Shown here piece after piece: positions 31,494 through 35,055 of a DNA stretch of 64,000 bases. The notes under the pieces are model-generated. The model had not been told where the DNA came from, ran no database searches, and was given only the letters and a program-made list of their open reading frames with translations. Location of the stretch: contig NZ_FNFM01000010.1 in assembly GCF_900101095.1 (NCBI RefSeq), positions 186,001 to 250,000 of the forward strand, read 5' to 3'. The position numbers and the translations under genes were made by a program. Within the stretch, counting starts at the first letter, position 1. Each line of letters begins with the position of its first letter. Origin of the DNA: Actinopolyspora mzabensis. Its GTDB lineage: Bacteria; Actinomycetota; Actinomycetes; Mycobacteriales; Pseudonocardiaceae.

Positions 31494-31557
31494 TTCGGGT
31501 CGTCGGGACTCCCGCTCGGCGGGGCCTACCGCCTGCGCCCGCTCCGGACGACCCGAA
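31494..31557. terminator. Long-loop inverted repeat at the left border of the toxin operon
   Basis: TTCGGGTCGTC (31494-31504) and GACGACCCGAA (31547-31557) are exact reverse complements, 11 bp each, with a 42-base spacer. It sits between the convergent ABC ATPase (stop 31486) and immunity gene (stop 31589). A bidirectional terminator or an old insertion boundary are both possible. Confidence 0.5.
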
Positions 31558-31588
31558 TTCGGGTAGTGATCCACAGCAAGGGTCGGGC

Positions 31589-32050
31589 TCAATACCATTG
31601 TCCGGGTTGCCACCGCACGGATTCGGGTCGTGTGCCGGTGCGGCAGTACTCGGTGATGGCTTCGCGGGCTTGGTCGAGGGGTAGTGAGGCCGAGGCGGGG
31701 AACCACAGGTCTCCCTCGGGATCGAACAGCAGTGGTGGTGTCTCCTCGGTGGTGTGGGGGTTGTATGAGTCTGCCGCCGCACCGTTGACCGCCTCGGGGC
31801 GTGCGTCCATGTGGCTGAGTGCGCCCCAACCGTTGTCGGGGTCGGCGGTGATGCGCAGTCTCGCGTGCGGGAAAGCTGGACCGTGTTCGTCGCGGAAGCT
31901 CAAGCAGGGTCGATCCCACACGTAGATTTGGGAATACCGGGTGCGGAGGACGGCCTCGACGAGGTCGGCGGTTTCCTCGGGGGTGCGTGCGTAGTGGAGG
32001 TCGTGACCGAGAATGCCGGTTACGACGGTCCCCGTGTCGATGGTGGTCAT
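31589..32050 (-). CDS. Imm1-family immunity protein
   Basis: The 153-residue protein matches the Imm1 immunity family of polymorphic toxin systems. The C-terminal half has the family's pattern: NGWGALSHMD near residue 81, then DLWFPASASLPLDQAREAI (aligned with the conserved proline-rich FP ... VPL-x3-RxA segment) and TGTRPESVRW near the end. It is acidic and without a signal, so it acts in the cytoplasm, presumably by binding the deaminase. Its ATG at 32050 overlaps the toxin's TGA in an ATGA (4-base) junction, so toxin and antidote are translationally coupled. AGAGGC stands just upstream. Confidence 0.82.
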   Translation of the reverse strand: MTTIDTGTVVTGILGHDLHYARTPEETADLVEAVLRTRYSQIYVWDRPCLSFRDEHGPAFPHARLRITADPDNGWGALSHMDARPEAVNGAAADSYNPHTTEETPPLLFDPEGDLWFPASASLPLDQAREAITEYCRTGTRPESVRWQPGQWY

Positions 32051-32793
32051 GGTGTTGCCTCTCCATGTATCTCGATGGGACGTGTTTCCCCTGGTTCCCA
32101 TACGGCCAGTGTTGATCCACGAGGCAGGATGGCTCGTACCGCAGCATGGCAGCCCCACGGGTCAGGACACATGCGATTGTTCAGTACGACGACTCCGTAG
32201 GTCTGCCCTGCTTCTTTCATTCGTTGGGCGTACTTTGCTTCGACGTGCGTGTCGACCACTGGGGACGCGTCTCCTCGATGCGGGGGATACACGCTCGATG
32301 TGTCGAGAGTGAGGCGTATGCGGTCGGAGAGTTTCTGGTCTCGGCCACTGGCCAGTATCTGTTCGTTTCCGTCTTGGTCGTAGATGAGTCCGGTGGTTTG
32401 TCTGCCGGTGTGCTCGGGCAGCCGTTCGCGAACCTGGTTGATCCATGATCGGTCGCGGGACGCGTCGGTGGGAACACGCGGGAACGTCGATGGGTGGGGA
32501 ATACTGGGCGGAGGCTGGTCGCCGCTCATGCCGAGCCCGGCGAGGTAATCCACCAGATGCTTGCGGGAGCTCCCGCACAGGGCGAGGACGTCGTCGATGA
32601 GCTCACGAGCCTGGTGGAACAGGTCGATGGCCTCGTACAGTTGTGGGTTCCGGCTGCCGTCGGAGATCTCACCGAGGGTGGGCAGGGCGTACTCGTCGAG
32701 CCAGACCCGTGCCTGTTGTAGTTGTTCGGTGGGTAGTTGTGCGAGAGCACCGCTGACCTCGTTTGCCAGGTGTCGCACGTCGGAATCGGACAC
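32047..32793 (-). CDS. SCP1.201-like (DddA-type) cytidine deaminase toxin
   Basis: The 248-residue protein has three parts. Residues 1-90 are helical and resemble secretion-linked N-termini of actinobacterial toxins. Residues 91-115 are a Pro/Ser-rich linker. Residues 116-248 are a SCP1.201-like deaminase domain: TTGLIYDQDG, ILASG, then the catalytic zinc-site motif HVEAKYAQRM (His183, Glu185), VVVLNN, the zinc cysteines Cys209 and Cys215 (CPDPWGC) and ILPRGSTLAVW. The family includes DddA, which deaminates cytosine in double-stranded DNA; other members use single-stranded DNA, so the substrate here is not settled. The GTG at 32793 follows AAGGAG. The adjacent Imm1 gene strongly supports a toxin role. 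Confidence 0.85.
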   Translation of the reverse strand: MSDSDVRHLANEVSGALAQLPTEQLQQARVWLDEYALPTLGEISDGSRNPQLYEAIDLFHQARELIDDVLALCGSSRKHLVDYLAGLGMSGDQPPPSIPHPSTFPRVPTDASRDRSWINQVRERLPEHTGRQTTGLIYDQDGNEQILASGRDQKLSDRIRLTLDTSSVYPPHRGDASPVVDTHVEAKYAQRMKEAGQTYGVVVLNNRMCPDPWGCHAAVRAILPRGSTLAVWEPGETRPIEIHGEATP

Positions 32794-32802
32794 CTTGGCT
32801 CC

Positions 32803-33051
32803 TTACAGGGCAGTGGTGTAGTCGCGCGTATGGTCGGAAGCCAGCGTCATGGCCTGCAGGGCTTCGCCGGTCTTCTCATGGGCCAGGCTGAGCCGTCCCA
32901 GCGCCTGCCGCACGTGCACCTGGTCGGAGCCACTGGCCACCTGCCACAGCTGACAGCGGAGTTCGTCGAGCTTGGTTTCGGCCTCGGACAGTTCCGGGAC
33001 GGGCACGGTGTCGGTGATCTGTCGCAGCCGGTCGCGAATGTCGTCGAGCAT
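32803..33051 (-). CDS. Small all-helical protein, toxin operon partner
   Basis: The 82-residue product is predicted entirely helical and charged, with no signal or membrane segment (LDDIRDRLRQITDTV at the start; RQALGRLSLAHEKTGEALQAM towards the end). Size and helix content resemble the WXG100-like or Lap-type partners encoded just upstream of type VII secreted toxins, though no WxG motif is present. It starts at the ATG at 33051 (GTG at 33054 is also possible) behind AGGAG and ends nine bases before the toxin start, so it is cotranscribed. A role in presenting the toxin for export is inferred from position. Confidence 0.65.
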   Translation of the reverse strand: MLDDIRDRLRQITDTVPVPELSEAETKLDELRCQLWQVASGSDQVHVRQALGRLSLAHEKTGEALQAMTLASDHTRDYTTAL

Positions 33052-33241: not shown

Positions 33242-33469
33242 TTACATGGCGCGCAGACCTGCGAGGACGCGGGCGAGCAGGTCCGGGTCCGCGCCGTCGA
33301 GCGCGAGCGGGCTGTCCGCCGTGGGCCGACCGGGTAGGTCGCTGCTTCCGGGACGGCGTTTCGTCACGGCCGACAGCGGCAACGTGCCACGCCAGTGCGA
33401 GAACCGGGCCAGCCCGAGGGCGGGCATGATCTCGGTCAGCGCCGCGTCGGCCCGGACCTCGTCAGGCAT
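33242..33469 (-). CDS. Small hypothetical protein, 75 aa
   Basis: The 75-residue product has a helical start (PDEVRADAALTEIMPALGLARFSHW), a basic middle (VTKRRPGSSDLPGRP) and a helical end (DPDLLARVLAGLRAM). No family is recognised. The start codon at 33469 overlaps the end of the gene at 33462-33665 by eight bases, so it is the third gene in a tight small-gene operon divergent from the XRE regulator. Confidence 0.55.
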   Translation of the reverse strand: MPDEVRADAALTEIMPALGLARFSHWRGTLPLSAVTKRRPGSSDLPGRPTADSPLALDGADPDLLARVLAGLRAM

Positions 33470-33665
33470 CGGTGTCGCCGTCGACGACGTTGGTCCCGTC
33501 CAGCTCGTCGGCGTAGCGCCGAAGGTGCTCGGTCATCCGCTCGAACACCTCGGCGGCCTCGCGGCACTGCCGTCCGGTGGCCAGCCGCCCGGCGATGTCG
33601 TGCGAGAGCTGTTCCATGCGCCACTGCTCGTGCGCGACCCACATCGCGAACTCGCCGGGACTCAT
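33462..33665 (-). CDS. Small helical hypothetical protein, 67 aa
   Basis: The 67-residue product is helical and acidic (GEFAMWVAHEQWRMEQLSHDI ... EVFERMTEHLRRYADEL). Its ATG at 33665 overlaps the TGA of the upstream gene in an ATGA junction, which fixes this start rather than the longer frame. No family is recognised. The tryptophan-rich helix EQWRMEQL could be a protein-binding surface; that is a guess. Confidence 0.6.
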   Translation of the reverse strand: MSPGEFAMWVAHEQWRMEQLSHDIAGRLATGRQCREAAEVFERMTEHLRRYADELDGTNVVDGDTDA

Positions 33666-34013: not shown

Positions 34014-34880
34014 ATGGCACGTAACAGCGGCGGGACACCGAAAGCGCGAGCACTGGGTGCTGAGCTGCGGGAAATCCGGGAGAACGCGGGGTTCACTCTG
34101 CGAGCCGTGGCACGCGAGCTCGAAACCAACCACGTCAAAGTCCAGCGATACGAAACCGGTGCCACGGTTCCGAGTCCGGAGCTCGTCGCCGCGTACCTCG
34201 GAGCGCTCGGCGTATCAGCGGCCGAACGCGAACGCCTGGTCGAGATGGCTCGCGACGCCGATCAGCCCGATTGGTTGTCGACCGGGTCGTCCGGGCCGCG
34301 CAAGGAACTCACCACGCTCATCGAGTTCGAGCGCAGCGCCAGTCGCATCACCGATGTCGCCACCGGTGTGATCCCTGGACTTCTGCAGACCTCGGATTAC
34401 GCACGCGCCATTATGCGTATGCTGCCCGTCGACGAGCGTGAGCAGCGCGTCCTCATGCGTATCGGACGGCGTGAAATCCTCACCACGCGAAACGCTCCGC
34501 ACTTCGTGGCGATCATCACGGAATCCGTGCTCGATGATCCGATCGGAGGCCGTGAGGTGATGGTCGAACAGCTGCGCCACCTGGCAAAAACGGCTGACGC
34601 GGACAATATCGAGATTCGTATCCTGCGTAGCGGCGCGACCATGTGGCATCCGGCGCACATGGGCTCGTTCATCCTGTTCGAGTTTCCGAAGGCAACGCCG
34701 ATCGTGCACATGGAGCAGTACCACTCATCGGTGTCGTTGCACACCCCGGGCAACGCTCACGCCTACCAGGAAGCGGTTACTAATCTGCACGAGGTGGCGA
34801 TGAGCCCCGATGCCTCCGTGGAGTTCATCGCCAGCCGTGCAGACGAAATGGAGGATGACAGCAATGACGGCACATCCTGA
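34014..34880 (+). CDS. XRE-family regulator with DUF5753 (Scr1-type)
   Basis: The 288-residue protein has an N-terminal Cro/C1 helix-turn-helix (about residues 12-70: LGAELREIRENAGFTLRAVARELETNHVKVQRYETG) and a C-terminal DUF5753 domain (about 95-280: VIPGLLQTSDYARAIM, GRREIL, GSFILFEFP, YHSSVSL). This combination, followed by DUF397, is very common in filamentous actinomycetes (WhiJ/BldB-type pairs) and is often linked to development or antibiotic control. It starts at the ATG at 34014. The C-terminus overlaps the next gene by 17 bases. Confidence 0.92.
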   Translation: MARNSGGTPKARALGAELREIRENAGFTLRAVARELETNHVKVQRYETGATVPSPELVAAYLGALGVSAAERERLVEMARDADQPDWLSTGSSGPRKELTTLIEFERSASRITDVATGVIPGLLQTSDYARAIMRMLPVDEREQRVLMRIGRREILTTRNAPHFVAIITESVLDDPIGGREVMVEQLRHLAKTADADNIEIRILRSGATMWHPAHMGSFILFEFPKATPIVHMEQYHSSVSLHTPGNAHAYQEAVTNLHEVAMSPDASVEFIASRADEMEDDSNDGTS

Positions 34881-35055
34881 AGGCTGGCGCAAGTCCAGCC
34901 GTTCGCATCAGCGGACGAGCTGCGTCGAGATCGGCCGCATCGGCAATGGCGCGGCGGTGCGTGACACCAAGGACCGCTCCGCCGGGTACTTCACCACCAC
35001 CGGCATGCAGTGGGCCGCGTTCATCGACGCCGTCAAGAACGAGCGGTTCGAGTGA
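34864..35055 (+). CDS. DUF397 protein, partner of the XRE regulator
   Basis: The 63-residue protein has the DUF397 signature: GWRKSSRS at the start, SCVEIG, AVRDTKD and a WAAFIDAVK end. It is the usual small partner of the XRE/DUF5753 protein; in the WhiJ model it antagonises the regulator. The ATG at 34864 follows GGAGG and overlaps the XRE gene's end, so the pair is translationally coupled. A strong terminator follows. Confidence 0.9.
   Translation: MTAHPEGWRKSSRSHQRTSCVEIGRIGNGAAVRDTKDRSAGYFTTTGMQWAAFIDAVKNERFE

Follow-up and report, generated by a model that had tools for sequence, protein, structure and literature searches.

A DddA-like deaminase toxin and Imm1 operon of Actinopolyspora mzabensis whose leader domain is shared by several toxin classes

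The pairing of SCP1.201 toxins with Imm1 immunity proteins has been in print since a survey of 2012, which gives as the hallmarks of Imm1 a tryptophan near the C-terminus and a location beside an SCP1.201 toxin (PMC3482391). Mitochondrial and compact base editors derive from DddA-like deaminases, and the determinant of action on double-stranded (dsDNA) versus single-stranded DNA (ssDNA) is unsettled. HVE and CxxC are reported together in 64 of 531 DddA homologues, with dsDNA activity in 7 of the 28 CxxC proteins tested, all seven within DddA’s own clade (PMC10587121). Another report describes a signal in an ssDNA-type editor reporter for 45 of 76 SCP1.201 proteins, many being said to act on ssDNA and not on dsDNA, together with dsDNA editing by 8 of 10 proteins of DddA-like core structure (PMC10847098). 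Little or no dsDNA activity is recorded for the four of four published homologues without an SPKK-like tail, a rule based on eight proteins (PMC9935910), while C.G-to-T.A mutations are reported to result from the toxin domain of UmbC1 (PMC11062931).

Here, we examine an operon in a 64,000-nucleotide stretch of A. mzabensis DNA (the window). Its toxin-immunity pair is of an already known kind; the newer part is the arrangement of the toxin’s leader domain, which seems to be undescribed, no description having been found in searches of open-access papers.

Organisation of the operon and family assignment

The features of the operon are collected in Table 1. An earlier note on this DNA had proposed a DddA-like toxin coupled to an Imm1 gene over a span that proved correct, with both genes on the minus strand, a point it had left unstated. 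The two family names it gave were borne out by Pfam profiles above their curated cut-offs: PF14428 (DddA-like) covers toxin residues ~116-245 with 93.6 bits against a cut-off of 25, and PF14430 (Imm1) matches the downstream protein with 56.7 bits against a cut-off of 22.4, its gene overlapping that of the toxin by the ATGA that the note had described. His183, Glu185, Cys209 and Cys215, which had been read from the sequence as the HVE motif and the x5-spaced zinc pair, are present and invariant in 11/11 aligned sequences (the window and 10 genus relatives), while an 18-row alignment with distant members keeps Glu185 and both cysteines invariant and varies at the His (Asp in some). Seven DddA-like proteins of the window’s family (L008, L009, L012, L013, L030, L031 and L032) carry DVE for HVE, with Asp at the zinc-ligand His and both cysteines kept. 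In Imm1, Trp147 near the C-terminus is invariant in 10/10 aligned sequences, L043 and L044 being excluded from the alignment. The toxin is thus a DddA-like (SCP1.201) protein by its profile match, HxE motif and two zinc cysteines, and its neighbour an Imm1 protein by profile match, C-terminal tryptophan and SCP1.201 toxin neighbour. NCBIfam gave no match at E 1, and no solved structure in the PDB matched Imm1 at E 10.

Table 1. Features of the operon in window coordinates
Feature	Position	Strand	Basis
Toxin gene, 248 aa, GTG start	32047-32793	(-)	ORF list
Imm1 immunity gene, 153 aa	31589-32050	(-)	PF14430, E 5.4e-15
ATGA: toxin stop TGA and Imm1 start ATG	32047-32050	(-)	Sequence
DddA-like (SCP1.201) deaminase domain	32050-32478	(-)	PF14428, E 1.3e-26
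His183-Val184-Glu185, HxE: zinc ligand and catalytic Glu	32239-32247	(-)	Roles taken from family
Cys209-PDPWG-Cys215, zinc-cysteine loop	32149-32169	(-)	Both Cys invariant, 18/18
Toxin leader domain, residues 1-105	32479-32793	(-)	PHPST conserved; other tips on same leader
Deaminase tip and Imm1, block exchanged as a unit in A. alba (L042)	31495-32478	(-)	Nucleotide identity breaks
Small gene, 82 aa, stand-alone leader homologue	32803-33051	(-)	hhalign against leader
AAGGAG, ribosome-binding-like site	32799-32804	(-)	Sequence reading; 5 nt before toxin GTG

The operon parts are under purifying selection. With 4 pairs compared for each, dN/dS is 0.13-0.21 in the deaminase C-domain and 0.14-0.20 in Imm1, and it is 0.13-0.53 across all parts and pairs; values this low in the toxin C-domain and Imm1 mark both as selected reading frames rather than chance ORFs.

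Among public sequences, the closest relatives come from Actinopolyspora, the best being that of A. righensis with 92% identity over the toxin. The A. mzabensis genome itself holds three DddA-like genes, 3/3 with a neighbouring Imm1, and eight Imm1 genes in total, 5/8 of them without a DddA-like neighbour; in this genome an Imm1 domain is also seen fused behind another N-terminal domain (L085:1078-1773). DddA-like genes occur in 27/200 sampled genomes of the order and in 5/5 of the genus genomes listed (own genome in both), and in 2/296 sampled genomes of the phylum, namely the own genome and one other (L136). The window’s GTDB family is Pseudonocardiaceae; NCBI places Actinopolyspora in Actinopolysporaceae. 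A mobile origin was considered and set aside, with 50,697 phage records yielding no match and with plasmid matches limited to the tip (seven Streptomyces plasmid records, 33-35% identity); the leader matched no plasmid record at E 0.01. Beside the operon lie a helix-turn-helix DUF5753 gene and then a DUF397 gene (window 34014-35055, plus strand), and A. righensis and A. alba have counterparts in that place which, as judged from sequence, are similar but diverged. Upstream of the operon lies a 67-aa protein (33465-33665, minus strand) with no Pfam match, whose counterparts at this site in two other species show 94-96% identity. Downstream of an Imm1 gene in L060, a transposase-like ORF (23-469) of the short IS200 kind was noted from its sequence.

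Tip exchange, the shared leader and the small upstream gene

The deaminase tip and Imm1 move jointly between loci, and the leader stays. The operon occupies the same chromosomal site in A. alba (L042) and A. righensis (L033), with an ABC ATPase gene on one side and an enoyl-CoA hydratase-like gene, so named from its sequence, on the other. Nucleotide identity between the window and L042 is 98.2% at 32971-32478 and 96.5% at 31495-30401, and between these segments only two short pieces align (73 and 67%); specifically, the upstream segment stops two residues past PHPST, and identity resumes just beyond Imm1. Part by part, identity between the window and L042 is 98% for the leader, 39% for the tip and 43% for Imm1, and between the window and L034 it is 57, 88 and 80%, respectively.

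This observation is further strengthened by Spearman correlation across 13 loci, in which Imm1 similarity follows tip similarity (r = 0.63, permutation p = 0.004, an optimistic value because the loci contain near-duplicates) and does not follow that of the leader (r = -0.09, p = 0.70), and leader and tip are weakly related (r = 0.18, p = 0.11). The 13-locus set excludes L016 (stop in the toxin), L039, L043, L044, L063 and L064 (truncated or Imm1 lost) and repeats under other identifiers, and the Imm1 range of L002 in it runs one codon past its stop. The locus thereby shows the organisation of a polymorphic toxin: a constant N-terminal module, an exchangeable tip and an immunity gene directly downstream. 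In the paralogous loci L039 (5676-5702) and L063 (1228-1254), the toxin frame ends in a match to the last nine Imm1 residues and no second good match to Imm1 was found, the picture that a deletion from the WQPG motif closing the toxin gene to the similar one closing the immunity gene would leave. In L036 (6414-6611) and L041 (6441-6611), the first Imm1 match has a further, incomplete one behind it with 80-84% identity to the window Imm1, perhaps an immunity trace left from an earlier tip.

The N-terminal 105 residues, which are not part of the deaminase and which the earlier note had missed along with the small upstream gene, form a carrier module common to several toxin classes. By eye, this leader appears helical; its PHPST motif (residues 99-103) is invariant in 12/12 aligned leader sequences, and nothing in Pfam scored above cut-off in 10/10. 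A profile of 12 genus leaders matched in 9/200 genomes of the order, and a broader 10-sequence profile, built from nine deaminase proteins and one other, matched at E 1e-3 in 96/150 genomes and 35/46 genera of the window’s GTDB family, where the weaker matches, some with internal stops, may be chance. Thirty leader loci carry 18 deaminase tips (called with an in-house C-domain profile), five CdiA-CT-like tips, one EndoU tip (Pfam E 1e-15) and six short unassigned frames, proportions that are biased because the leader profile was built mostly from deaminase proteins. Two of the CdiA-CT-like tips were compared with PDB 7m5f_C (E 2.2e-22 and 3e-17), and the other three are 56-75% identical to the first of them. 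Elsewhere, L053 (1054-1752) encodes an Imm1 fused behind a leader-like domain, which might be an immunity or decoy protein using the toxin’s own leader.

Two candidate identities of the leader were rejected. A WXG100 or LXG identity was rejected at the level of profiles, with hhalign values of 8.0 and 8.7% against the six WXG100 matches of this genome and no WXG100 or LXG Pfam match at E 1 in the leader or the operon proteins. DUF6244 gave only a weak hint (best E 0.02, in 1/10 leader sequences), and its profile matched 0/100 family genomes, with no control genome matching either.

Along its length, the 82-aa protein encoded upstream is homologous to the leader. When the leader alignment (31 sequences) was compared with the small-protein alignment (8), hhalign returned probabilities of 96.4 and 97.0 (E 1e-9 and 1e-10), against 0.5% for a reversed control and 8.0% for the WXG100 control; with shallower alignments, the leader and small protein gave 47%. 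The stop codon of the small gene overlaps AAGGAG, so that small gene, toxin and Imm1 stand as three genes in a tight row. A match to the small gene is present in 5/5 of the genus genomes listed, own included, and the gene is full-length in 5/12 named loci (L033, L034, L036, L038, L040). Of the other seven, L042 has an in-frame shortened copy and L041 a broken frame, L035 and L039 retain a fused remnant, and no small gene was found in L037, L043 or L044. The small protein may pair with the leader, a suggestion that we grade as the weaker one because several loci lack an intact small gene. Outside the genus, 21 loci were inspected by eye, and a small protein upstream at L163 weakly matches the leader profile (17.7 bits). 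In A. alba (L042), the small gene just upstream of 4998 encodes 56 residues against 82, an internal stretch near the start being missing; this might mean either that the toxin does not need the small protein or that the A. alba locus has reduced activity.

The cysteine loop and the likely substrate

The spacing of the zinc cysteines was surveyed at 120 loci with a match, of which 108 were parsed and 12 were not, giving 68 cores distinct by loop and tail. These come mostly from the window’s own GTDB family, and 72 of the 90 order-level matches were taken in as loci, own three included; the Cys-loop and loose SPKK patterns used are in-house. The number of residues between the two cysteines is 2 in three cores, 4 in one, 5 in 34, 6 in eight, 7 in two, 8 in three, 9 in ten, 11 in one and 12 in six. 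The earlier note had set C-x5-C apart from the C-x2-C of DddA; with half of the distinct cores sharing it, this spacing is the commonest and was dropped as a mark of novelty. The accompanying caution that the substrate may differ from DddA’s was sound, and the evidence leans away from DddA-type dsDNA activity. The three C-x2-C cores (CRGC) belong to genus paralogues on the same leader (L047, L048, L057), and the genus as a whole carries x2, x5 and x6 loops (L047, the window and L040, respectively). Among 13 genus members, loop 210-214, flanked by its invariant cysteines, is the most variable five-residue stretch of residues 176-248, with a mean entropy of 1.77 bits against 0.80.

A DddA-type dsDNA deaminase, with the same tip biology and with Trp213 in the cysteine loop doing the work of Phe1375 of DddA, is the alternative that survives best, and we regard it as rather doubtful. 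In its favour are the DddA-like Pfam name and match, and the return of DddA (6u08) by the PDB profile search. Phe1375, which is reported to intercalate into DNA (PMC10442228), was placed in the same loop by the profile-search alignment with 6u08, and an aromatic residue stands at -2 from the second cysteine in 22/65 loops long enough to have one. On the other side, Gly214, Ala217 and Ala218, counted from the second cysteine, occupy the places of Phe1375, Asn1378 and Met1379, so that the loop reads C-PDPWG-C and not the C-x2-C with Phe, Asn and Met described for dsDNA-acting Ddd proteins (PMC10442228). Across the survey, Phe was found at the DddA-1375 position in 0/68 cores, the residue before the second cysteine being Gly, Ser, Asn, Thr, Arg, Ala or Val in 68/68. 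The window toxin, ending in PIEIHGEATP, has no SPKK-like tail, and the loose pattern occurs in 1/68 cores, another one; both the published activity of homologues without that tail (PMC9935910) and the confinement of dsDNA-active CxxC proteins to DddA’s clade (PMC10587121) likewise count against this alternative. DddA-type dsDNA activity is less likely because there is no Phe1375 equivalent and no SPKK-like tail, and because many SCP1.201 proteins give an ssDNA signal, while the dsDNA editing reported for 8 of 10 proteins of DddA-like core structure (PMC10847098) points the other way; judged from its residues, the window toxin would act on ssDNA at least as probably as on dsDNA.

Proposed function and comparison with known systems

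The reading that we favour, and hold to be probable, is that of a polymorphic toxin operon directed against rival bacteria, with an exported cytosine deaminase tip acting on DNA, protection by Imm1 and the leader as carrier. It draws on the two Pfam matches, the Imm1 neighbours of all three DddA-like genes of the genome, the exchange of tip together with Imm1, the co-variation of the two, the presence of the leader on other tips, the leader-homologous small protein and the mutagenic tip of UmbC1. By analogy with the family, the C-terminal tip would enter a competitor and deaminate DNA cytosine through the His/Cys/Cys zinc site and Glu185, the deamination would lead to C-to-T mutations and death, and Imm1 would block its own tip and so protect the producer; the leader probably serves export, and the product of the small gene may pair with it. 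Counting against export are the lack of a signal peptide evident by eye, the lack of a recognised secretion gene among the ORFs adjoining the operon and the unlikeness of the leader to WXG100; two EccC matches above cut-off lie in the same genome, both on other contigs. A more far-reaching version, which we put forward tentatively as somewhat less than an even prospect, is an undescribed carrier module in the window’s family in which the leader works with its stand-alone copy and exports interchangeable tips, with substrate choice and recognition by the immunity protein co-evolving at the cysteine loop.

The same lack of an evident export signal and of a recognised neighbouring secretion gene, together with the compactness of the operon, would suit a cell-internal toxin-antitoxin or anti-phage suicide module, with Imm1 as antitoxin, the leader or the small protein as sensor and no export. 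We consider this unlikely, given that the leader also bears EndoU and CdiA-CT-like tips, as in polymorphic toxins, and that most Imm1 genes of the genome have no DddA-like gene beside them, a pattern to be expected if they guard against toxins of other cells; the search of phage records also counts against it, though solely as regards spread by the phages covered. A remnant that has decayed or lost its activity, to which the broken paralogues might point (a stop in L016, truncation in L043 and L044, Imm1 lost in L039 and L063), is very improbable for the window copy, which has an open frame, retains every catalytic residue and has a tip dN/dS in the low range given above.

The genus paralogues combine one leader and similar cores with a most divergent cysteine loop, so that effects of the loop can be tested on natural proteins. 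If the hypervariable loop sets the target, the x2, x5 and x6 loops on one leader would constitute a natural ssDNA/dsDNA series; if the leader proves to be an export module, it would represent a further route by which actinomycetes deliver antibacterial toxins.

A single-sequence PDB search gave 8w20 as its only match (E 3.7e-8, with C-x10-C as counted on the alignment), which we take to be UmbC1 of Streptomyces coelicolor, while the PDB profile search brought up entries for DddA and for DddA-like constructs (9ld1, E 9.5e-8; 6u08, E 6.7e-4) and not 8w20 at E 10. Like UmbC1 and UmbD1 (Imm1), as described in PMC11062931, the locus combines a non-CxxC loop with an Imm1 encoded immediately downstream; unlike UmbC1, a 1368-aa ALF-repeat umbrella particle with C-x10-C, the window toxin is a 248-aa two-domain protein. 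With DddA of Burkholderia cenocepacia, it shares PF14428, and the two align at HVE and in the stretch that follows the second cysteine (6u08), whereas DddA is reported to have C-x2-C with Phe1375, an SPKK tail, T6SS delivery and a dsDNA substrate (PMC10442228, PMC9935910). The Sdd deaminases, ssDNA-acting members of SCP1.201, belong to the same Pfam family and were compared at family level only (PMC10847098). Finally, the short N-terminal domain, variable tip and small gene alongside resemble by analogy those described for LXG toxins (PMC9600955); unlike the LXG/WXG100 proteins of the T7SS, the leader has no profile similarity to WXG100, and the small protein of the window is a homologue of the leader itself.
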